Assembly: GCF_000015285.1 (NCBI RefSeq)
Contig: NC_008709.1
Location: 1,612,001-1,676,000, forward strand
Direction: 5' to 3'
Source of the DNA: Psychromonas ingrahamii 37
GTDB lineage: Bacteria; Pseudomonadota; Gammaproteobacteria; Enterobacterales; Psychromonadaceae
DNA: 64,000 nt
Positions within the stretch are counted from its first letter, which is position 1, and each line of letters begins with the position of its first letter. Below, one piece after another: positions 47,837 to 60,870 of the stretch. The position numbers and the translations under genes were made by a program. A model generated the notes under the pieces. The model saw only the letters and a list, made by a program, of their open reading frames with translations, was not told where the DNA came from and searched no databases.

Positions 47837-47892
47837 TTTGATTCTTTAACCTTTATTCCTTAACTTTTATCCCTTAACTTTTATCCCTTAAC
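47837..47892 (-). repeat. Four-copy 14-bp tandem repeat at the cueR stop codon
   Basis: On the minus strand the units read GTTAAGGGATAAAA twice, then GTTAAGGAATAAAG and GTTAAAGAATCAAA. The first unit includes the last codons and TAA of cueR (GTT AAG GGA TAA). Decay increases with distance from the gene. Confidence 0.9.
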
Positions 47893-48273
47893 AAAGGCAT
47901 CAATGATCGCACACTGGGCGTTTTCATCATTATGGCACTGCTTGGAAATTTCTTTCAGGCTATTTAATAAAATTTGCTGTTGATCTATCCGGTGCTGTAA
48001 CTCTTCTATTTTTTGCATTGTTATTGCTTTTACATCTGCGCTGCTGCGGGTTTTATTTTCAGATAATAACAATAATGCTTTGCTCTCTTTTAAGTTAAAA
48101 CCTGCTTCTTTGGTTTTTTTAATAAAATGTAAGCGTTTAATTAAGGATGCGGGATAACAGCGGTAATCATTTTCACTGCGTGGTGGGGGAGGGATCAAAC
48201 CTATCTGTTCATAATGGCGGATTGATTTCACCGATAATCCTGTTGCTTTTGCTGCTTGACCGATAGATAACAT
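47881..48273 (-). CDS. cueR: Cu(I)-responsive MerR-family regulator CueR
   Basis: 130 residues. MerR winged helix: MLSIGQAAKATGLSVKSIRHYEQIGL with a second wing near residues 40-70. A dimer helix follows, and then the metal loop QCHNDENAQC, whose Cys-x7-Cys spacing matches CueR Cys112/Cys120. It twists the 19-bp spacer promoter of copA to activate it. It lies 119 bp downstream of copA in the same direction, unlike the separate locus in E. coli, so it may be co-induced. Confidence 0.92.
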   Translation of the reverse strand: MLSIGQAAKATGLSVKSIRHYEQIGLIPPPPRSENDYRCYPASLIKRLHFIKKTKEAGFNLKESKALLLLSENKTRSSADVKAITMQKIEELQHRIDQQQILLNSLKEISKQCHNDENAQCAIIDAFVKG

Positions 48274-48392
48274 ATAAAGTGCCCGTTACTGCTTAAATAT
48301 AAGTGAAATTTTAATAATCTATAAGCTGATTGTCGACTTGCTTATTATGCCAAATCGACTTGCCCGATAGATTACATAAATACGCTATTAAA

Positions 48393-50783
48393 TTAATGAC
48401 TTTTAAAACGTTTTAACAATATAGAGTTACTTAATACTGTAATACTCGACAAAGCCATTGCACCACCCGCGATGGCCGGATTTAAATAACCCAATGCCGC
48501 TGCCGGAATAGCCACCGTATTGAAAATAAAAGCCCAAAAGAGATTTTGTTGTATTTTTCGCCAAGTGGCTTTAGAGATATCAATCGCTAACGCCACTAAA
48601 CGCGGGTCATTACGCATTAAGGTAATAGAAGCACTCTCTTTGGCCACATCACTGCCAGTGCCCATTGCGATACTCACATCGGCTTGCGCAAGCGCTGGTG
48701 CATCATTCACCCCGTCTCCGACCATTGCAACTTGTTTACTGTTTTGTAAAAAGGTTAATTTTTCAAGTTTTTGTTCCGGTTTTAATTCGGAAAAACTGCT
48801 GTTCATCTGGAGTTGTCGACTGATATGTTCAACCACACTTTGTTTATCGCCACTTAACATTATTGTCTCTAAGCCTCGGCCCTGTAACTGTTGAATCGCT
48901 TCAGCACTTTCCGGACGAAGCGCATCCTCGATACTGATATAACCTAAAAACACATTATCAGATGCGACATAGACAATACTGCCCGTGGCAGCTTTTTGCT
49001 TATCAACTAACCCTTCCGGTAACTTAACAGAAAAATCATTCATCAAACTAATATTACCCGCGACTAACAATTTTCCTGAGACGATTCCCTGAATACCCTG
49101 ACCACTGATAGCTTGTACCTCACTCGCGTCTAAGGGGCTAATCGCATTTTTTTCACAGTAGTTTTTAATCGCATTGGCAATAGGATGCTTACTGCCCGTT
49201 TGCAGGGCACTTAATAAACTTAGCAGGGTGCTATTATCTTGATTTACGCTGTAAACCGTACTTATTTCCCCTTTACCCTGCGTTAATGTCCCAGTTTTAT
49301 CAAAGATAATAGTTTGTAATTTATAGGCTTTTTGCAATGTGTCGATATCTTTAATCAAGATCCCTTTTTGTGCTGCAACCCCAGTACCCACCACAACAGC
49401 TGTTGGTGTGGCAAGCCCAAGTGCACAGGGGCAAGCGATAACTAAGACAGCGACGGCACTGATTAGAGCCTGCTGAAAATCTCCCACTAACAGGTACCAG
49501 GTTAAAAATGTGATGGTCGCAATAAGCAAAACAACGGGCACAAAAATAGCACTGATTTTATCAACCAGTTTCATAATAGGGGCTTTACTCATTTGTGCAT
49601 TTTCAACCAAAGAAATAATTTTACTGAGGCTGGTGGATTCTCCCACTGCCGTTGTTTTGATTAATAAAACCCCATCACCGTTAATACTGCCTGCAATGAC
49701 AGGATCATTGTTCTGTTTTAAAACAGGCTTACTCTCACCGGTTAATAAAGATTCATCCAGATAACTTTGACCTTCAATGACTAAGCCATCAACAGCGACT
49801 TTTTCGCCAATAGCGACCTGTATTAAATCACCCAGTTGCACTTCATCAATATTCACATCAATAAAAACTTTGCCTTTTTTAACCTTTGCCGTATCAGGAC
49901 GTAATGCCGCCAATGCATTAATGGCAGTGGTTGTATTTTGTTTAGCGCGATGCTCTAAGTATTTACCCAGGGTCACCAGGGTGATTACCATGGCACTTGA
50001 TTCAAAATAAAGTGGCTGATTTAACCCACCTAAAAAAACAACCAAACTGTAAAAATAGGCGGAACTGGTTCCCAGTACAACTAATACATCCATATTAGTG
50101 CTGTAGTTTTTTAAACTAAGCCAAGCTCCCTTATAAAAACGGGCGCCGATAATAAATTGTACCGGAGTGGCTAACATAAATTCTAACCAGCCAGGTAACA
50201 GGGATATATGGTTGTTAACAAACATGGTGACCATATTCAGTAAAAAAGGCAGGCTAAGTAAAATAGAGAAGCTTAATATGAGCAGCGCTTTTTTATCCGC
50301 GGTGTTTTGTTTCGCTACTTTTAATGCATTTTCAGCTTTAAGGTTTTTTTTCGATGAAATATGCAAGGTGTAGGGAATTAATGATGAAAAAGTGTCAATA
50401 TCCGCTTTTTTTAATGCACCCCTGATCGTTTGAACCTGCACTTTTTCAGTCGCAAAGTTAGCTTGAGCATTTATTACTAAGGTTTGCGCATTAAGCATCT
50501 TACTGGTTGTATTAGCACAATTTGCGCAGCTCCAACCTTCGGCTGTTAAGAGAATAGTCTCAGTATCGGTTTGATAACCTTTCTGCTCTAACAGCGCCAT
50601 AATGGTATTGAGCGTGTTCTTATGATCGATCTCAGGGTCAAAATTGATATGCGCAGCTTCTAATGCAAAATTGACTTCTGCTTCGATACCTTTTATCTCA
50701 TTTAATGCAGACTGCAGTCGACTTGCACAGCCGGCACAGTTCATGCCATAGACGGGCAGTTTTAACAGAGATGAATTTGTCAT
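48393..50783 (-). CDS. copA: Cu+-exporting P-type ATPase CopA
   Basis: 796 residues. Two N-terminal metal-binding domains have GMNCAGC and WSCANC. There are eight TM helices, a TGES actuator, the membrane metal site CPC in IACPCALGLAT, DKTGT phosphorylation site, GSKHPIA (HP motif of P1B) and the hinge MVGDGVNDAPAL. It pumps Cu+ to the periplasm. AAGGA lies eight bases before ATG. Transcription starts from the CueR-type promoter at 50818-50848. Confidence 0.97.
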   Translation of the reverse strand: MTNSSLLKLPVYGMNCAGCASRLQSALNEIKGIEAEVNFALEAAHINFDPEIDHKNTLNTIMALLEQKGYQTDTETILLTAEGWSCANCANTTSKMLNAQTLVINAQANFATEKVQVQTIRGALKKADIDTFSSLIPYTLHISSKKNLKAENALKVAKQNTADKKALLILSFSILLSLPFLLNMVTMFVNNHISLLPGWLEFMLATPVQFIIGARFYKGAWLSLKNYSTNMDVLVVLGTSSAYFYSLVVFLGGLNQPLYFESSAMVITLVTLGKYLEHRAKQNTTTAINALAALRPDTAKVKKGKVFIDVNIDEVQLGDLIQVAIGEKVAVDGLVIEGQSYLDESLLTGESKPVLKQNNDPVIAGSINGDGVLLIKTTAVGESTSLSKIISLVENAQMSKAPIMKLVDKISAIFVPVVLLIATITFLTWYLLVGDFQQALISAVAVLVIACPCALGLATPTAVVVGTGVAAQKGILIKDIDTLQKAYKLQTIIFDKTGTLTQGKGEISTVYSVNQDNSTLLSLLSALQTGSKHPIANAIKNYCEKNAISPLDASEVQAISGQGIQGIVSGKLLVAGNISLMNDFSVKLPEGLVDKQKAATGSIVYVASDNVFLGYISIEDALRPESAEAIQQLQGRGLETIMLSGDKQSVVEHISRQLQMNSSFSELKPEQKLEKLTFLQNSKQVAMVGDGVNDAPALAQADVSIAMGTGSDVAKESASITLMRNDPRLVALAIDISKATWRKIQQNLFWAFIFNTVAIPAAALGYLNPAIAGGAMALSSITVLSNSILLKRFKSH

Positions 50784-53494: not shown

Positions 53495-53892
53495 AATTAA
53501 ACTTGTTAGCAAAAATACTCAGCTTTTCTTCTGCTAATGTAAATAACCCAATCTCAGGTTAACTACTTTTTTCAAATACAGTGAATATTGACCTTCCCTG
53601 GATGGTAGATGAGATAGAGCTATTTAGTTAAGAAATTGACATGGCTAAGATTTAAAATAACAGTATATAAACTGAGGACTTGATAAGTCGTTTTCAATTA
53701 TCAGAGGCTTAAAGTAGTTCAATGCCAAACAATGATACTAATTTAGCCCATAGTAAAAACAACCCTAATGTCATGAGACAGACGCCTGATAAACTTAGCC
53801 AAAAGCCAAATCTGGGGTAAACAAGGGGAAAAATCAAGAACATCGGCAGAGTCGGGATCACGTACCAGAAAGTGTAATACCAATCCGCTTAT

Positions 53893-54489
53893 TTAACTGA
53901 TCAATGACATCCAATCCCTCGTACACATTTTTATCACTCTTTTGCTGTCACTTACAAAATCATTCCAAGCATCACAGACAGTTTCAACTATTGAATCATA
54001 ACCACTGAAACATCTGTTTGCTAAGTGATGTTGTCGAAGCCAACTCCATACCTGTTCAATCGGATTTAGTTCGGGTGAATAGGGTGGCAGCTTTATGATT
54101 GTTAAATTCTTGAAGTCAGCGTCAATATCATCGCTATGCCAACCAGCACCATCCATGATGATAACGGCATGTCTATCAATTGGGGTTCTATCTGATATTT
54201 GTTGAAGATGCGTCATCATAATGTCTTTGTTTACATAAGGTACGACTAGTGCTTCTGAAGCGCCATTGGTAATACAGACAGATCCAAATAAATAGGCGTA
54301 TTCGAATTGCTGTTGTTTTACTGCTCTTGGACGGCTACCTTTTTCAGCCCATAATTTGGTTGTTGTATTTTGCTGGCCAAATCGTGCTTCATCTTGTAGC
54401 CATATATCCACACGATCTAATGCAATATGACCAGGGATCTTAAAGATCGTTTTGAATTGGAATTTTTTTAAAATCCTCTTGCGCTTCAA
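53893..54489 (-). CDS. IS630 transposase, DDE catalytic part (orfB)
   Basis: 198 residues. The catalytic triad sits in DRVDIWLQDEARFGQQ (first Asp), VIIMDGAGWHSD (second Asp) and LPPYSPELNPIEQVWSWLR (Glu). All three are intact. It overlaps orfA by 50 bp in another frame. The natural product is probably a fusion made at the A7 run (54463-54469). The codon labelled start here is likely not used. Confidence 0.88.
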   Translation of the reverse strand: MKRKRILKKFQFKTIFKIPGHIALDRVDIWLQDEARFGQQNTTTKLWAEKGSRPRAVKQQQFEYAYLFGSVCITNGASEALVVPYVNKDIMMTHLQQISDRTPIDRHAVIIMDGAGWHSDDIDADFKNLTIIKLPPYSPELNPIEQVWSWLRQHHLANRCFSGYDSIVETVCDAWNDFVSDSKRVIKMCTRDWMSLIS

Positions 54490-54928
54490 TTGATTGCTTA
54501 GGGTGCTTAGAACGGGATGTTATCCAAGAAAAACCTAACTTATGCAGTAACTTATAAACACTTGATAAATGGTAATGCACTGCAAAATTTTCTTCTATAT
54601 AAAGTTGTATGTCTGAGCCATTTAATCGTCCACCAAGCTCACTTTTAGATGACTCAGTTACATAATGAATGAGTTGCTTATGTTGCTCGTTCGATAATCG
54701 AAAAGGCCTGCCAGTTGTTTTTTTATCGATTAAGCCATCCATTCCAAATTGGTGATACTGAGAGATCCATTTATTTATACTGGTTCGGCTGACCTTTAAA
54801 AATTTAGCGATAGCAGTGCGTGAATTACCTTCTTGGAAGTGTGCAAGTGCTAAAAAACGGAGCCTCATTCGAACGCTTTGATGCGTTTTAGCTAATGCAG
54901 TAAAGTCATGTTTTTTTGTAGTCATCAA
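54440..54928 (-). CDS. IS630 transposase, DNA-binding part (orfA)
   Basis: 162 residues. Two helix-turn-helix units: AIAKFLKVSRTSINKWISQY with GMDGLIDKKTTGRP, and a winged helix near HYHLSSVYKLLHKLGFSW. It lacks catalytic residues. Near its end an A7 run in frame TTT AAA AAA ATT can slip by one base into the catalytic frame. Confidence 0.88.
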   Translation of the reverse strand: MMTTKKHDFTALAKTHQSVRMRLRFLALAHFQEGNSRTAIAKFLKVSRTSINKWISQYHQFGMDGLIDKKTTGRPFRLSNEQHKQLIHYVTESSKSELGGRLNGSDIQLYIEENFAVHYHLSSVYKLLHKLGFSWITSRSKHPKQSIEAQEDFKKIPIQNDL

Positions 54929-55339
54929 TAGCGTTTCATTATTTAATAATTGGAATACTATTAGATCACATAATTAGTAGAATTGGTATAAAATGCATGA
55001 TTGGCCACTTTTTCTGTTGGTGTGCCTTCGAGATGAAGCCAAACCAGCACCAGTAAAGTTACCACAGGTAATGAAGCTAATAGCGCACCAAGATGTTCAC
55101 TGCGTTTAGCGACTTCGGAAATCAGTACCACCAGTGCTGCGGTGACCAAATACTTAATGATTATAAACATGGTTTCTCGGTTTTATTAGCCCAGTATTAT
55201 TGATTGGGTCTGCTTTCCGCTGTCTGAAGATTGCTTAACCCTTCTAGATCATAGGCTAAAGGGCAGCAATCTTCTCATTATATCGACTCGGTGATACTCG
55301 TTCAGGATAAATCAGCAGATTTATACACTGAGCTTTTTC

Positions 55340-55465
55340 TACTTCTTCGTGGCTGTGGCCATGCTCTTTTGTATTACTTTCTTCATGCGAGTGATGATTG
55401 CAGCAGAAACAGTCCCAAGCACGGCAGTTAGAATAAGTGCTTTCAGTATGTCATGGTTTTTCATT
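55340..55465 (-). CDS. Small membrane-type protein, 41 residues
   Basis: MKNHDILKALILTAVLGTVS followed by a basic tail (RMKKVIQKSMATATKK). AGGGA lies 7 bases before ATG. One hydrophobic helix. It sits between the membrane-anchor gene and DUF3147 in the same direction. In another frame the same DNA reads a His/Cys-rich stretch (CNHHSHEE, EHGHSHEE) reaching 55274, so a frameshift in a longer metal-binding protein is an alternative. Confidence 0.45.
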
Positions 55466-55515
55466 ATGTTTCCCTGTTGATGGTTATAGCCAAATGGGCC
55501 GTGCTTCTGGTGACA

Positions 55516-56085
55516 TTACTTGATGCCAATAAGCTCGTAATGGCCTTCTGTGCTTACCAAAACGGTGATCGGAGATGAGCTGTTATTTTTCCAATACCAA
55601 CCATGCGAACCTTCAAAAGGGGCGGTAAATGTGCCCTTTACTTTTCTACCCGTACTGACTGCATAGCTTTCAAAATAGCCAGTCGTATCGCCTTTGGGTT
55701 CACCATGAAAATCAAAGAAGAGCGCTTCGCTGGTCGATTTCCAGGAATAACGGATCGCTGCCCCTTTATTTATTTTTAACTTATATTCGAGCCCTTTTCC
55801 AGCTGGAATAATGACTTCGTTGTTGTGCTCTTGATATTTCCCACTAGCTTTTTTTACCACCGGCTTTACCTGCTCAACAGGTGATGGGTTCGCTAATTGG
55901 GTTAAGCCAAGCGCTGCACCTATGCCTGTTGGGTCTATGTCATATTCAGCAGGTAAAATGGCTGTTGTTAACACTATAGAGCCAAGTACTACTGCAAATA
56001 CACTGGCTTTGACTAGCGTTCGAATTGAAGGCAAAGTGTGCTCTATTTTATGTTGGGTAGCTGTTGTTTCTTTTAACTGAGTCAT
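55516..56085 (-). CDS. Transmembrane anchor protein of the HupE cluster
   Basis: 189 residues. One TM helix (VKASVFAVVLGSIVLTTAIL, about 28-47) is followed by AEYDIDPTGIGAALGLTQL, which is typical of a conserved 'transmembrane anchor' family found beside HupE genes. A periplasmic beta-rich domain has IPAGKGLEYKLKINKGA, FDFHGEP and GSHGWYWKN. Function unknown. It starts 9 bp after HupE, so it is in the same operon. Confidence 0.75.
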   Translation of the reverse strand: MTQLKETTATQHKIEHTLPSIRTLVKASVFAVVLGSIVLTTAILPAEYDIDPTGIGAALGLTQLANPSPVEQVKPVVKKASGKYQEHNNEVIIPAGKGLEYKLKINKGAAIRYSWKSTSEALFFDFHGEPKGDTTGYFESYAVSTGRKVKGTFTAPFEGSHGWYWKNNSSSPITVLVSTEGHYELIGIK

Positions 56086-56094
56086 CTTTTAACC

Positions 56095-56793
56095 TTAAAT
56101 TGTTGTAAAGTAGCCTGTTAGTTGAAGGCCAACCAACATCACGCCACTACTCATAAGTAGTGCATTTGTTGCTGTTGAAAAACGCAAAAAACTCGGGTGC
56201 CGGCGCCAATAGCTCAGTGCTAACAAAACCAAAATCAATGCTGACAATTGTCCTAACTCAACCCCCACGTTAAAAGCAATCAGATTTTCTATCAGGCCAT
56301 CTTGTGGGATCTCAAATTCCTGTATTTTGGTTGCTAAACCGAAGCCATGGAATAGACCAAAAATCATTACGGCTATTTTTGTATTAGGTTGGTAACCAAG
56401 TACCCGTTTAAACCCGCCAAGATTATCAAACCCCTTGTAAATGATAGAAAATCCGATAATAGCGTCGATCAGATAGGCGTTAACTCCCATGTCGTATAAG
56501 ACGCCAAACATCAGGGTCAAACTATGACCTATGGTAAACAAGGTCACATAAAGCATGACCTCTTTTAAACGATAGAGAAAAAATATAACCCCTATCAAAA
56601 ATAATATGTGGTCATACCCCGTCACCATGTGTTTAGCACCGATGTACATATAAGGAATGATGGAAACACCCTGATTGGCTTGCAAGAAGCCTTTGGTGCT
56701 TTCATCCACACCGTGAGCCATTAGCGTGGCAGAGAAGCCACAAAAACAAAGCAACAAGAGTACCCTGGAAATAACATTGGATTTAGTAAACAT
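56095..56793 (-). CDS. HupE/UreJ-family membrane protein
   Basis: 232 residues. A signal peptide ends MAHG, followed by the family blocks GAKHMVTGYDHILFLIGVIFF (conserved His-Asp-His), TLFTIGHSLTL and FGLFHGFGLATK. Six to seven TM helices. HupE/UreJ members are linked to Ni2+ or Co2+ uptake. This branch (HupE/UreJ_2) is not tied to hydrogenase or urease genes here. It lies between DUF6488 and the anchor gene. Confidence 0.85.
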   Translation of the reverse strand: MFTKSNVISRVLLLLCFCGFSATLMAHGVDESTKGFLQANQGVSIIPYMYIGAKHMVTGYDHILFLIGVIFFLYRLKEVMLYVTLFTIGHSLTLMFGVLYDMGVNAYLIDAIIGFSIIYKGFDNLGGFKRVLGYQPNTKIAVMIFGLFHGFGLATKIQEFEIPQDGLIENLIAFNVGVELGQLSALILVLLALSYWRRHPSFLRFSTATNALLMSSGVMLVGLQLTGYFTTI

Positions 56794-56845
56794 TGCAGAA
56801 AATGCCTCGTTAATTGTGACTAATTAGTACAATATGTGAAATTTC

Positions 56846-57202
56846 TTATAATTGTTCAAAATTTCCGTCGAAGTTAGCGCCTAAATATGTGCCTTGAGCG
56901 TTCAGTAAAATGTATAACGTTCGACTCTCGACCGTATTAGTGAAAGAAATAGAGTAGTATCGGACAGATTTATAATGCATTTTTTTATTATCCACAGACT
57001 TCCAGCTTGGTTTAAGTATTTGCCCTTCAATAGTCGCTTTATCATCAACTAATTTAATAAGATCATTAGTTGCTTTGGTTATAACTTGCTCTGTAGTGGG
57101 GGGCTCAACTGATGAGTTGCTATGTTCGGAGTGACTGTAAGCCACATTGGAAATCAGCATCGCTGAAGTAAGTACGAGCGTAGATATTATCTTTTTGAAC
57201 AT
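56846..57202 (-). CDS. DUF6488 small periplasmic protein
   Basis: 118 residues with a signal peptide (MFKKIISTLVLTSAMLISNV) and then HSEHSNSS, a short His-rich stretch just after cleavage that could bind metal. The end TLYILLNAQGTYLGANFDG is typical of DUF6488. The start at 57202 has AGGAA upstream and gives the signal peptide; an upstream frame to 57316 would add 38 unlikely residues. Function unknown. Same strand as the HupE and M56 genes. Confidence 0.75.
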   Translation of the reverse strand: MFKKIISTLVLTSAMLISNVAYSHSEHSNSSVEPPTTEQVITKATNDLIKLVDDKATIEGQILKPSWKSVDNKKMHYKSVRYYSISFTNTVESRTLYILLNAQGTYLGANFDGNFEQL

Positions 57203-57331
57203 AAAATAGTTCCTGTTAGTAAAGTGATTATCGGAGGCATGTGTAGTGCCCTTATTACTTAATAAGGGTACCGAAGTAAAAACCGATTGTCGATAGGTTT
57301 TTGTGAAGGGAGTCATAACATGCTTGAGTGG

Positions 57332-58300
57332 CTATAGAGTAATGAAGAATTCAATGGCATTGTGAAGGGGGACAGAAGCACAAACCGCTGTGATTATCAG
57401 AGTCAGTACGGCCAGTTTAATCGTTTTTGGGCATAAGGATTTTTCAGGCACAGGCGCTAACAAATAATGTACTCTTTGCTCTAACTCTGAAGCTAAAAAC
57501 TGGCACAATGGCTCGGTTTGAGCCTCGGGACTCATCAATTTTTTTACTGTCAAAATAGTCTCTGCAACATCCAGGTTAGATTGAATAATTTGGGCTGCAA
57601 GTTGATCAGCCCTCATCTCTAATACCAGAGCGTGTTGCTCCAGAATATATTTTTGGGCAGAAGTAAAATGGAAGGTACATATTGCTTGCATTAGCAATTT
57701 AGACAAGCCATCCCGATATTTCGTATGTACTTCTTCATGTATCGACACTATTCGCACCTGCCGGGGCGAGAGCTGATTTTTGAGTCCGGTTGAGAGCACC
57801 GTGATAGGCTTAAAGATACCAAGAGAAAAAGCCAAGGGTACGGGACTCTCGATGATCTTAACGTTTGATTCAGGGCCCACTTCTGACACCAGATCTAGGC
57901 GCTTAAATAGTTTTTGAGCGCGCTGGAAGTATCTCAAAGCTGATATACAAGCCCATAAAAAAAGGCCGACAATAGCCCCTGCTATCAATAATTCAACCAA
58001 GGTAACCATATGAGAAGTAGGTGCACCAAAACAGGCGCTGGCAGCATGACAATGATCTATGGGCAGTAAGGAGTCGTGATTTAAAGCGGGCACAGTGACT
58101 ATTATGGAGAGCATCACAGCCCCTGCGAGTGGTGAAATGCCGAAAATTCGTAATAATATCAGCTTCGACTCAAGAGTGAATTTTTTAAGCCATTGAGTAA
58201 AAAAAGGGCTGACTAACCAACAAGCAGCGCTCAATACCAGAGTAAAAAGGGAAATGATGTAGAGCAGATGTAAGCTCAAGCTGAACACGCTATTAATCAT
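57332..58300 (-). CDS. M56-family (BlaR1-like) membrane metallopeptidase
   Basis: 322 residues. Four TM helices are seen: near 15, 52, 105 and 295. The zinc site HEEVHTKYRD (HExxH) lies in the cytoplasmic loop after the third. EMRADQLAAQ supplies the third ligand. There is no penicillin-binding sensor domain as in BlaR1, so the signal is not beta-lactam binding through that route. It overlaps the BlaI-like gene by 8 bp, so the two are coupled. It probably cleaves or inactivates that repressor. Confidence 0.85.
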   Translation of the reverse strand: MINSVFSLSLHLLYIISLFTLVLSAACWLVSPFFTQWLKKFTLESKLILLRIFGISPLAGAVMLSIIVTVPALNHDSLLPIDHCHAASACFGAPTSHMVTLVELLIAGAIVGLFLWACISALRYFQRAQKLFKRLDLVSEVGPESNVKIIESPVPLAFSLGIFKPITVLSTGLKNQLSPRQVRIVSIHEEVHTKYRDGLSKLLMQAICTFHFTSAQKYILEQHALVLEMRADQLAAQIIQSNLDVAETILTVKKLMSPEAQTEPLCQFLASELEQRVHYLLAPVPEKSLCPKTIKLAVLTLIITAVCASVPLHNAIEFFITL

Positions 58301-58679
58301 CTTTTTTAATTATCTCGTTTTTTCTACTGGCAATCAGATCTTCAAGGCGTTGCAAGCTCAGTGGATCCAATTGGGATGAAATATCAACAAAAGCTTCTAA
58401 TACTGCTTCAGAATCATTTTTTGCCAGCTCTTGCGTAATATCAGTTATCAGCGAACCTAATAATTCTTTTCGCTCAATTGCAGGAGAGTATGCAAAAGCA
58501 TGGCTGCATTTTTTCCGAGACAGCAGTCCTTTCTTATAAAGCCTGTCCAGAGTTGACTGAATAGTGTTAAGTGTCCCTCCGCGAATTTTTTCAAAGTGAA
58601 GATGAGCTTGTTTAGCATTGGCTATTTTTACTCTCCACAGATAATTTAACAGTAACTTTTCCAATTCGCCTAGCTTCAT
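58293..58679 (-). CDS. BlaI/MecI/CopY-family repressor
   Basis: 128 residues. Winged helix: LGELEKLLLNYLWRVKIANA then TLNTIQSTLDRLYKKGLL, followed by a helical dimer region of the kind cut by the partner peptidase. There is no Cys-x-Cys copper motif of CopY. The start ATG at 58679 has AAGGTG upstream. It heads the operon toward the M56, DUF6488, HupE, anchor and DUF3147 genes. Confidence 0.88.
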   Translation of the reverse strand: MKLGELEKLLLNYLWRVKIANAKQAHLHFEKIRGGTLNTIQSTLDRLYKKGLLSRKKCSHAFAYSPAIERKELLGSLITDITQELAKNDSEAVLEAFVDISSQLDPLSLQRLEDLIASRKNEIIKKDD

Positions 58680-59206
58680 TAAGAACACCTTTTTTGCGTA
58701 TAGCATTATTTCTATAATACGTGTTTTATTAAAGTGATAGTAGCTTAAGCTTAAGCTGTAACCAATACTCTTTTATTAAGGTAAATTTGATTGGCTAGTT
58801 TATCCCTAGCATTAATGACGAACTTTCATAAAAAACTCGCCAACCAGTTATTTTGAAAGGTTACATTTTTTTATAAAAAATCATGTAAAAAGAGAGAAGA
58901 GGGATGTACAAAATACTTATTATTCTAAGTAGGGACTTTTTCTTGCATAAATAACGGTGTCATTATCAGATTTAAACAAACCACTTAAAACCAAGAGGCA
59001 GTCACCTATATAAGCTTAAAAATAGCAGGTTATAATTTTTTAACGACTGTTTTTTGAGGATGAAAATGTTTTTCCCATTTGGTATTTTCTCAAGCTCAAA
59101 TAGCTAAATGAACCCATTTATTTTTTGTAGTGGGTAAGTGATACTGATTCAAATTTTATAAGTTTCTAACTCGCTTCACGCCCTGAGGATTAGTTTAAGC
59201 TTTTCC
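58680..59206. other. Intergenic region upstream of the BlaI-type gene
   Basis: AT-rich. It holds two dyads near the repressor start (58705-58718 ATTAT-TTCT-ATAAT, and the palindrome at 58743). No promoter hexamers stand out, and there is no gene. Confidence 0.5.
58743..58758. promoter_or_regulatory. 16-bp palindrome, possible BlaI-type operator
   Basis: AGCTTAAGCTTAAGCT, a perfect palindrome about 65 bp before the BlaI-like start. It does not match the TACAnnTGTA core of known BlaI/CopY boxes. Assignment rests on position and symmetry only. Confidence 0.35.
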
Positions 59207-59845: not shown

Positions 59846-60115
59846 TTATTCTATAATATCGCCGCGTAATAAGTACTTACAAAAGGCCGAAGTACTTACA
59901 AAGCCAAGCAGTGCAATCAGTAATGCACCTTCGTAGTAACTGGGCGAGCCTTGGTAAAGCCCTAACAATATGATCAGTGCAATACTGTTAATGTACATGG
60001 TATCAACGGCGATAATTCTGTCAGGGGTAGTGGGGCCAATGATCAAGCGCCAAGCATTTAAGGCTAAAGCACAACCAATTAAGCCGCAAGAAATCAGTAT
60101 AGCGTAACTTAACAT
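59846..60115 (-). CDS. mrpF: Na+/H+ antiporter subunit F
   Basis: 89 residues, three TM helices. RLIIGPTTPDRIIAVDTMYI carries the conserved Asp of MrpF. It overlaps mrpE by 7 bp (start inside mrpE end). Confidence 0.93.
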   Translation of the reverse strand: MLSYAILISCGLIGCALALNAWRLIIGPTTPDRIIAVDTMYINSIALIILLGLYQGSPSYYEGALLIALLGFVSTSAFCKYLLRGDIIE

Positions 60116-60609
60116 CCGAAAATCTCCTTTAAAGGTGCTTCATAACGATCTTTGATAAGGTTAATTAACTGCTGCTCGTCCTCAAGGTGCAGAACGTGTA
60201 CATACAGCCATTGCCTGTTATCCGACAATTCTACGCTCACTGTGCCAGGTGTTAATGAGACGCTGCTAGTAAAGATGGTGAGTGGTAAAGGCTCATTAAT
60301 GGCTAAAGGCACCGCAATAAAAGCCGGCTTTAAACTACTATTGCTTTGCAGTACGCGTTTCGCTACGTCGTAATTAGAGACCACAATGTCAAAGAGTAAA
60401 CGAAAGACATACGTCAATACTTTAAGAGGCTTTTTTGCTACCGGTTCTTTCTCACTGAGCGGTGCGACAATCCAAGGGATAACAATGGCAAACACCGCCC
60501 CTAACACCATATGACCACGACTAAAATCATGTAAAATTTGCCACACTAACCATAGCAATATGCTGTAGTAAGGAGTAGGGAACCAAATAAACTTACGCAC
60601 TTTATCCAT
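60109..60609 (-). CDS. mrpE: Na+/H+ antiporter subunit E
   Basis: 166 residues. MDKVRKFIWFPTPYYSILLW, then two TM helices and a C-terminal domain with SVSLTPGTVSVELSDN and YVHVLHLED typical of MnhE. Complete and unmutated. Its first ~75 codons are duplicated just upstream in the transcript (60609-60851). Confidence 0.93.
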   Translation of the reverse strand: MDKVRKFIWFPTPYYSILLWLVWQILHDFSRGHMVLGAVFAIVIPWIVAPLSEKEPVAKKPLKVLTYVFRLLFDIVVSNYDVAKRVLQSNSSLKPAFIAVPLAINEPLPLTIFTSSVSLTPGTVSVELSDNRQWLYVHVLHLEDEQQLINLIKDRYEAPLKEIFGC

Positions 60610-60870
60610 TATTTAGCTACCTCATTAATGTCAAAAAGTAAACGAAAGACATACGTCAATACTTTAAGAGGCTTTTTTGCTACCGGTTCTTTCTCACTGA
60701 GCGGTGCGACAATCCAAGGGATAACAATGGCAAACACCGCCCCTAACACCATATGACCACGACTAAAATCATGTAAAATTTGCCACACTAACCATAGCAA
60801 TATGCTGTAGTAAGGAGTAGGGAACCAAATAAACTTACGCACTTTATCCATTATTTAGCTACCTCATTAA
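60387..60870 (-). repeat. 242-bp near-identical tandem duplication in mrpD/mrpE
   Basis: Copies 60387-60628 and 60629-60870, period 242, with one difference noticed (60394 against 60636). The unit runs from the mrpD 3' end through the first ~75 codons of mrpE. The near-identity means it is very recent. Confidence 0.95.
60609..60851 (-). pseudogene. Truncated mrpE copy fused to the mrpD tail
   Basis: 80 residues: residues 1-74 equal MrpE, then INEVAK-stop, where NEVAK is the MrpD C-terminus. It starts at the mrpD stop and stops at the true mrpE start, so coupling is kept. The product would have the first MrpE TM helices but no C-terminal domain. Confidence 0.9.

Follow-up and report, generated by a model that had tools for sequence, protein, structure and literature searches.

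What does a BlaI-type repressor control, and in answer to which signal, when the M56 membrane peptidase beside it carries no penicillin sensor? BlaI/BlaR1 is the β-lactam switch of Gram-positive bacteria, and the question is raised by a gene cluster in a stretch of 64,000 nucleotides of Psychromonas ingrahamii 37 (contig NC_008709.1, positions 1,612,001 to 1,676,000), which is called the window below and to which all positions refer. In this cluster, genes for a BlaI-type repressor and an M56 peptidase are followed by those for DUF6488, a HupE/UreJ-type transporter and a so-called transmembrane anchor protein (Table 1), and all five genes are intact and lie on the minus strand. We assign a probability of about 0.7 to the reading that a metal-responsive proteolytic relay of the BlaI/BlaR1 type controls here a short metal-handling operon related to RND-pump clusters.

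At rest, a dimer of the BlaI-type repressor would occupy the operator at 57280–57300 and block the DUF6488-HupE-anchor genes. When periplasmic metal, most likely Ni2+ or Co2+, rises, it would bind M56 at a site to which both the loop joining membrane helices 2 and 3 and the C-terminus of the last helix contribute. This binding would activate the cytoplasmic zinc protease of M56, and the activated enzyme would cut the repressor at a conserved Ala|Phe bond, so that the operon is derepressed. Among the top-ranked matches in the open-access literature, we saw none that dealt with metal efflux under the control of a BlaI/M56 pair.

Gene company and operator of the BlaI-M56 pair

Relatives were collected with an alignment of nine BlaI relatives, and the best 80 of 171 confirmed loci, all from named genomes, were scanned with profiles built from sequences of this analysis. 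In 79 of the 80, BlaI is accompanied by M56, which is in two pieces in L052 and L074. For 65 loci the contig extends at least 8.6 kb downstream, the other 15 contigs being too short to judge, and in these the genes downstream of BlaI-M56 include an RND pump in 58, HupE in 55, the anchor in 48 and DUF6488 in 46, with all four in 32; HupE keeps its place in the gene order of relatives. A survey of family co-occurrence had been proposed in the first-pass annotation, which was made from the sequence of the window alone, as a check on its suggestion of a metal or envelope-stress relay, and the co-occurrence proved strong and gives no ground for rejecting such a relay. An unusual order is seen in Marisediminitalea (L092, 9998–17350), where TolC-adaptor-RND genes separate M56 from BlaI.

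Two of the RND proteins were scanned and score above the cut-off of the CusA/CzcA model TIGR00914. Annotated plasmids of Shewanella and Pseudoalteromonas and a Salmonella IncC plasmid carry BlaI-M56-TolC-adaptor-RND-HupE-anchor-DUF6488 together with a divergent DUF3147 gene, and the plasmids with the complete cluster that are typed as conjugative are the Salmonella IncC plasmid (L130) and two of Shewanella (L017 and L129). On Glaciecola pGLAAG01, BlaI-M56-TolC-adaptor-RND is followed by three genes annotated as hypothetical, which were taken as HupE, anchor and DUF6488; queries from L020 match the first two, and the third was assumed and used as a seed.

No match to an RND pump was found in the window, and in this the cluster resembles seven of the 65 loci (L022, L026, L054, L055, L060, L089 and L098). 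The pump-less label requires at least five changes on the M56 tree of 74 sequences, so that the regulator has stayed the same while its effectors were exchanged. On this tree the window pair falls in one group with L022–L026, and the window cluster represents a metal cluster of Gammaproteobacteria from which the pump is missing. Its relatives share the CusA/CzcA-family TolC-adaptor-RND genes with CzcCBA, CnrCBA and NccCBA, and the window cluster differs from these systems in having no RND genes.

HupE-anchor pairs are also present without BlaI-M56 in other metal islands, HupE preceding the anchor in the five such modules inspected (L018–L021 and L128). On an Enterobacter and a Pseudomonas plasmid the pair adjoins a metal-sensing repressor of the CsoR/RcnR type and an MFS transporter. 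The anchor matches 385 plasmid records, 147 of them from Klebsiella, and two M56 queries match 2 and 9. These pairs, the operator and the lack of an RND pump in this copy had escaped the first-pass annotation.

A conserved operator resembling AAACCGATTGnCnATCGGTTT stands before BlaI and again just past M56. The palindrome ACCGA-n7-TCGGT is found in 51 of 75 distinct BlaI upstream regions, a count from which 13 loci without a strict start motif, five of them generic BlaI-M56 loci, were excluded. The classical BlaI/MecI operator is TACAnnTGTA, and TACA-n2-TGTA is absent from the 40 commonest palindromes of these 75 regions. A relaxed form of the operator, with at most one mismatch, was counted 202 times, in 87 of 91 loci (generic and repeat loci excluded), and the reversed pattern gave 18 matches, in 17 of the 91. 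The relaxed form is missing from the HupE-anchor loci L018–L021, where no BlaI-M56 was seen; the sole match in L052, with its broken M56, lies away from the cluster, and scattered extra one-mismatch matches occur elsewhere in the loci. A mismatch-free relaxed operator precedes BlaI in 59 of 80 loci and lies within 200 bp past the M56 stop in 48 of the 72 with enough sequence, at distances of 24–184 bp. The site on the BlaI side holds a TTG core like that of a -35 element, and the -10 match near it is better at 16–18 bp than at 22–24 bp (mean 3.7 vs 2.6 of 6; 58 regions). A promoter consensus scan of the region was uninformative, with 11 matches vs 12.3 in shuffles.

The window operator lies upstream of DUF6488-HupE-anchor, at the position that the second operator occupies in relatives, and 0.06 perfect operators would be expected in the window by chance. 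It is also the only site in the genome above the reversed control. A search of the genome for a regulon gave, besides this perfect site read once per strand, matches that all have three mismatches; since the totals (4 forward and 4 reverse) match those of the reversed control (3 and 4), a single operator target is assumed. A search of 295 genomes of the order gave the exact operator in 14, one of them the genome of the window, and no case of the reversed pattern, and all 20 distinct exact sites adjoin BlaI and M56; this test is not fully independent, as at least G000, G026, G028, G062 and G081 supplied training loci and others may belong to the species of named loci. The operator is absent from seven generic BlaI-M56 loci (L133–L139) over about 1.5 kb on each side.

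The membrane peptidase and the repressor

The M56 proteins were compared in a set of 77 unique sequences directly following BlaI, from which identical rows, the repeat loci L001/L002/L005/L006, and L038, L048, L052, L070, L074 and L092 were left out. H188, E189, H192, E228 and D232 are invariant in all 77, and the catalytic motif of the window protein is HEEVH. Conserved polar positions are found further at H83 and H85 (74 of 77 each), H97 (70), H313 (72) and E317 (69, with Asp in five more); three proteins truncated at contig ends account for the gaps at 313 and 317. H83, H85 and H97 fall in a predicted periplasmic loop, and H313 and E317 at the end of the last helix, which is predicted at 291–321 in the window protein of 322 residues. 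In 12 generic M56 proteins used as a control, the catalytic residues are all kept, and H83 is found in two, E317 in one, and H85, H97 and H313 in none, with one of the 12 (L139) having H-x-H in the loop stretch. The loop mostly reads HWHH...SWHG, and in the six members of the window clade DHCHxxxxC...SH; DHCH is found also in the loops of L029, L037 and L040. From this pattern of conservation, H83, H85, H97, H313 and E317 plausibly form a metal site.

A penicillin-binding sensor domain was not found in the window M56 (NF000326, 19.5 vs 400 bits), just as the first-pass annotation had stated for this peptidase. The protein matches BlaR1 by profile (E 9e-10), and its AlphaFold model has a mean pLDDT of 88.4. 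A Foldseek search gave BlaR1 a probability of 1.00, but with E 7e-3 and low TM-scores, and ranked the membrane protease ZMPSTE24 first. An extracellular loop before helix alpha-3 of BlaR1 is proposed as the signalling element in PMC9834060, and the loop corresponding to it carries the conserved His in the M56 proteins of this set.

The open reading frame (ORF) of the repressor is 58293–58706, and its start was placed at 58676 by alignment with relatives. The longer start at 58706 is unlikely because these relatives mostly begin with M-x-LGELEK, the motif of the subfamily being LGELEK...SLNTIQSTLDRL. Staphylococcus aureus BlaI is cut by BlaR1 between Asn101 and Phe102, as stated in PMC9834060. 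The position aligned with this Phe102 is Phe in all of 84 repressors (those of the 80 loci, of three plasmids and of the window; near-copies were counted), with a preceding Ala in 83, and the M56 position aligned with the autocleavage Phe284 of BlaR1 is Phe in 63 of 77. Since the catalytic residues are intact and the cleavage-site Phe is conserved, there is indirect support from both proteins for the view that M56 would cleave BlaI.

The system most like the window pair is BlaI/BlaR1, with MecI/MecR1, of Staphylococcus and Bacillus, in which a PF03965 repressor likewise adjoins a PF05569 M56 protein with the same catalytic residues and cleavage-site Phe. Unlike these, the window pair has no penicillin sensor, carries predicted-periplasmic His and Glu residues, and has another operator and metal-handling neighbours; for want of the sensor domain, and with its different operator, the pair does not belong to the β-lactam sensors. 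The repressors CopY and TcrY, which belong to the same superfamily, also have metal-handling targets and carry a Cys metal motif, C-x-C. Membership of the window BlaI in CopY was rejected, as it scores 40.9 vs 121.95 bits with CopY_TcrY and C-x-C is found in one of the 84 repressors, and the signal here, in contrast to CopY/TcrY, would probably pass through a membrane protease.

These comparisons define a coherent BlaI-M56 subfamily, marked by a specific operator and by a candidate metal site, which is linked to metal efflux and is found also on plasmids typed as conjugative. Gram-negative blaI/blaR genes can be listed as β-lactam resistance genes, as in a Cupriavidus example given in PMC7239810, and we advise that BlaI-M56 pairs such as the present one should not be read as β-lactam resistance.

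Inducing metal and competing explanations

For the identity of the metal, the neighbouring exporters were examined. Among 62 long downstream RND proteins, 55 carry DFG-DGA-EN, four DFG-DGT and three AIG-DAA (L024, L025 and L078), two of the last belonging to the window clade. According to PMC3637150, DFG-DGA-VEN is the motif of both HME1 (Zn, Co, Cd) and HME2 (Co, Ni). DmeF-like exporters are present within the fetched stretch at 11 of 80 loci, including three of the five close relatives of the window pair (L024, L026 and L025, in the last of which the gene runs off the fetched stretch). The four that were scanned (L024, L026, L027 and L041) score 371–409 bits against the NF033827 cut-off of 250, and a CDF protein of Glaciecola falls below the DmeF cut-off with 76 bits. 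Eight of 80 loci, two of which are contigs of one strain, have an MFS transporter resembling the one in the HupE-anchor plasmid modules, and at five Thalassolituus-type loci the operator lies 11–34 bp before the start of the transporter gene. We regard this transporter as probably NreB-like; the curated model that it matches best, without reaching the cut-off, describes a general H+ antiporter family. The CsoR/RcnR-type repressor of the plasmid modules was not used to name the metal, as by its residue fingerprint it could be a copper or a nickel sensor alike, and the copper repressor model that it matches best in NCBIfam gives a score far below cut-off.

Because of the neighbouring Co/Ni exporters, nickel or cobalt is favoured as the inducer, at slightly better than even odds. 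The most nickel-induced gene in Sphingobium sp. ba1, as described in PMC5557971, is a HupE/UreJ-like gene that lies in an NreA/NreB/CnrCBA-like cluster. That cluster is like the present ones in combining a HupE/UreJ-type gene with metal exporters, and is unlike the window cluster in its control, which lies with an NreA-type repressor instead of BlaI-M56. Rather more tentatively, and at somewhat less than even odds, we propose a gammaproteobacterial class of BlaR1-like receptors that would sense periplasmic Ni/Co directly through a His site, to which the loop between transmembrane helices 2 and 3 (TM2–TM3) and the end of TM4 would both contribute, and would cleave BlaI; its class-specific operator would be AAACCGATTG-nC-nATCGGTTT. 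If this is true, a protease-based periplasmic metal sensor would replace the usual sensor kinase or sigma/anti-sigma route, and the sensing part of BlaR1 would be interchangeable.

Two competing explanations keep the relay and change only the metal. Zinc or cadmium as the inducer has a small but real chance: the same motif belongs to HME1 pumps, exporters of Zn, Co and Cd (PMC3637150), one scanned adaptor resembles CzcB/NccB below the curated cut-off, and the RND protein of the close relative L024 is nearest to ZneA among solved structures (703 vs 624 bits for CusA), against which stand the Co/Ni-type exporters among the neighbours, where no search was aimed at zinc-specific ones. Copper (or silver) is unlikely, since the divalent-cation motif is carried by 55 of the 62 adjacent RND pumps and DmeF-like or NreB-like exporters by 17 of 80 loci, three of the five close relatives included. 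It would nevertheless account for several neighbours, namely copA and a CueR-like gene (by eye) at 47881–50783 of the window; copC-copD-like genes upstream of the cluster in a genome of the same genus (G021) and at L101; in Massilia (L021), copC and copD next to HupE-anchor, together with a copper oxidase; ATPases resembling CopA at L064 and L065; and a CusA-type RND motif upstream in L029, L065, L067 and L068; the Cys in the M56 loop of the window clade (DHCHxxxxC) also fits it.

It is quite unlikely that the cluster is a decayed, non-functional remnant whose regulator and effectors no longer cooperate in this strain. In favour of decay are the insertion sequence (IS) element of the IS630 family in the DUF3147-type gene, the frameshifted lipoprotein gene, the lack of a pump and of an operator before BlaI, and the state of the cluster in G021, with M56 fragmentary and BlaI missing; but the five genes named at the outset are intact, the catalytic and cleavage residues are kept, the operator has no mismatch, and pump-less forms recur on the M56 tree. 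A relay for envelope or cell-wall stress as in BlaR1, with M56 sensing a periplasmic protein or a peptidoglycan fragment, is very unlikely: the M56 and BlaI families do sense β-lactams and the modelled β sandwich of the anchor could bind a polymer, but the sensor domain is lacking and the partner genes are metal efflux genes. The proposal of a metal or envelope-stress relay thus gained support in its metal half, from the CusA/CzcA-family operons and the His/Glu positions of M56, and nothing was found in favour of the other half.

Several observations weigh against the metal-responsive relay as a whole or against nickel/cobalt. Most relatives carry an operator before BlaI, and the window has none there; model confidence is low for the putative sensing loop (pLDDT 54–68), and the periplasmic side of M56 is assigned by analogy with BlaR1. 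The cluster is partly decayed, with its DUF3147-type gene broken and its lipoprotein gene frameshifted, and copper genes, which point to copper as the inducer, are found at a distance of several kb in the window and, as copC-copD-like genes, close to the cluster in G021. This last genome keeps the effectors without a working regulator, so that regulation may be dispensable.

Effector proteins and features of the window

From their gene company, HupE, the anchor and DUF6488 are presumed to move or buffer metal, and the relay offers a testable role for all three. DUF6488 is a small protein whose N-terminus resembles a signal peptide and contains His. The anchor has no Pfam or NCBIfam match, and its label is the annotation of several plasmid relatives. 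Its AlphaFold model (mean pLDDT 88.5, pTM 0.57) finds the GOLD domains of p24/TMED proteins as top Foldseek matches (E 6e-6, TMt up to 0.77), and D125, H127 and H161 are invariant in 40 sequences.

Table 1. Positions of the features of the cluster in the window
Feature	Position	Strand	Evidence or remark
BlaI/CopY-type repressor	58293..58676	-	PF03965, 68.4 bits vs cut-off 22.6
M56 membrane metallopeptidase, putative metal sensor	57332..58300	-	322 residues; PF05569, 33.7 bits vs cut-off 31
Operator AAACCGATTGTCGATAGGTTT	57280..57300	.	0 mismatches; about 32 bp past the M56 stop
DUF6488	56846..57202	-	PF20098, 93.5 bits vs cut-off 27; corrected start ATG 57202
HupE/UreJ-type membrane transporter (HupE_UreJ_2)	56095..56793	-	PF13795, 192.5 bits vs cut-off 24.5
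Anchor ('transmembrane anchor protein')	55516..56085	-	One TM-like helix and a GOLD-like β sandwich
Remnant of a small His-rich lipoprotein gene, frameshifted	55339..55464 (about)	-	Open frame MKNHDILK...; His-rich stretch in another frame
DUF3147-type gene, 5' part	54985..55167	-	Matches L086 residues 3-63 and L056 residues 5-64
IS630-family element inside the DUF3147-type gene	53880..54984	-	Bounds inferred from the two gene halves
DUF3147-type gene, 3' part	53715..53879	-	Matches L056 residues 62-116, E 1.4e-9

The gene set named in the first-pass annotation is present in the order given there, with starts corrected; it was identified by Pfam and NCBIfam scans, the names of the anchor and of DUF3147 being taken from annotated relatives (plasmids in the case of DUF3147). 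For DUF6488, the corrected start is likely because the longer ORF, with its start at 57316, would run through the operator. The DUF3147 fragment has no Pfam match, and its NCBIfam matches are all below cut-off (NF006751, 93.7 vs 154 bits). Its disruption by an IS, here an IS630 element, had been recognized correctly, and the DUF3147-type gene lies outside the range of the cluster as annotated. The transposase consists of two overlapping ORFs (53893–54489 and 54440–54928; NF033545, 144.8 and 106.9 bits), and no terminal inverted repeats were found at the settings used. Placement of the cluster in an accessory region agrees with the genus, as only one of 23 other genomes (G021) matches the window M56, in fragments; there (L132, 3136–7823) the operator and an intact DUF6488-HupE-anchor set are kept, BlaI was not found, and the copC-copD-like genes upstream were identified by eye. 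Of the several mobile remnants claimed for this region, the IS630 element was the one checked, and it is real.

Intact relatives of the lipoprotein gene sit after the anchor in Neptunomonas (L022) and on Enterobacter and Pseudomonas plasmids (L019 and L020), and in these three loci the HupE-anchor module seems to include, as an additional small component, a His-rich lipoprotein of 40–45 residues (...HGHSHE or a like sequence). Several kb from the cluster, the copper ATPase gene copA (TIGR01511, 587.7 bits) is accompanied by the CueR-like regulator, of the MerR type. Between these two genes and the cluster lie the IS630 element and a gene that was judged by eye to be DNA polymerase IV-like. On the other side, at 60109–60851 inside an antiporter operon, the start of a Mrp/Mnh-type antiporter subunit gene (MDKVRKFIWFPTPYY...; by eye) is duplicated in tandem, one copy being truncated (80 vs 166 residues).

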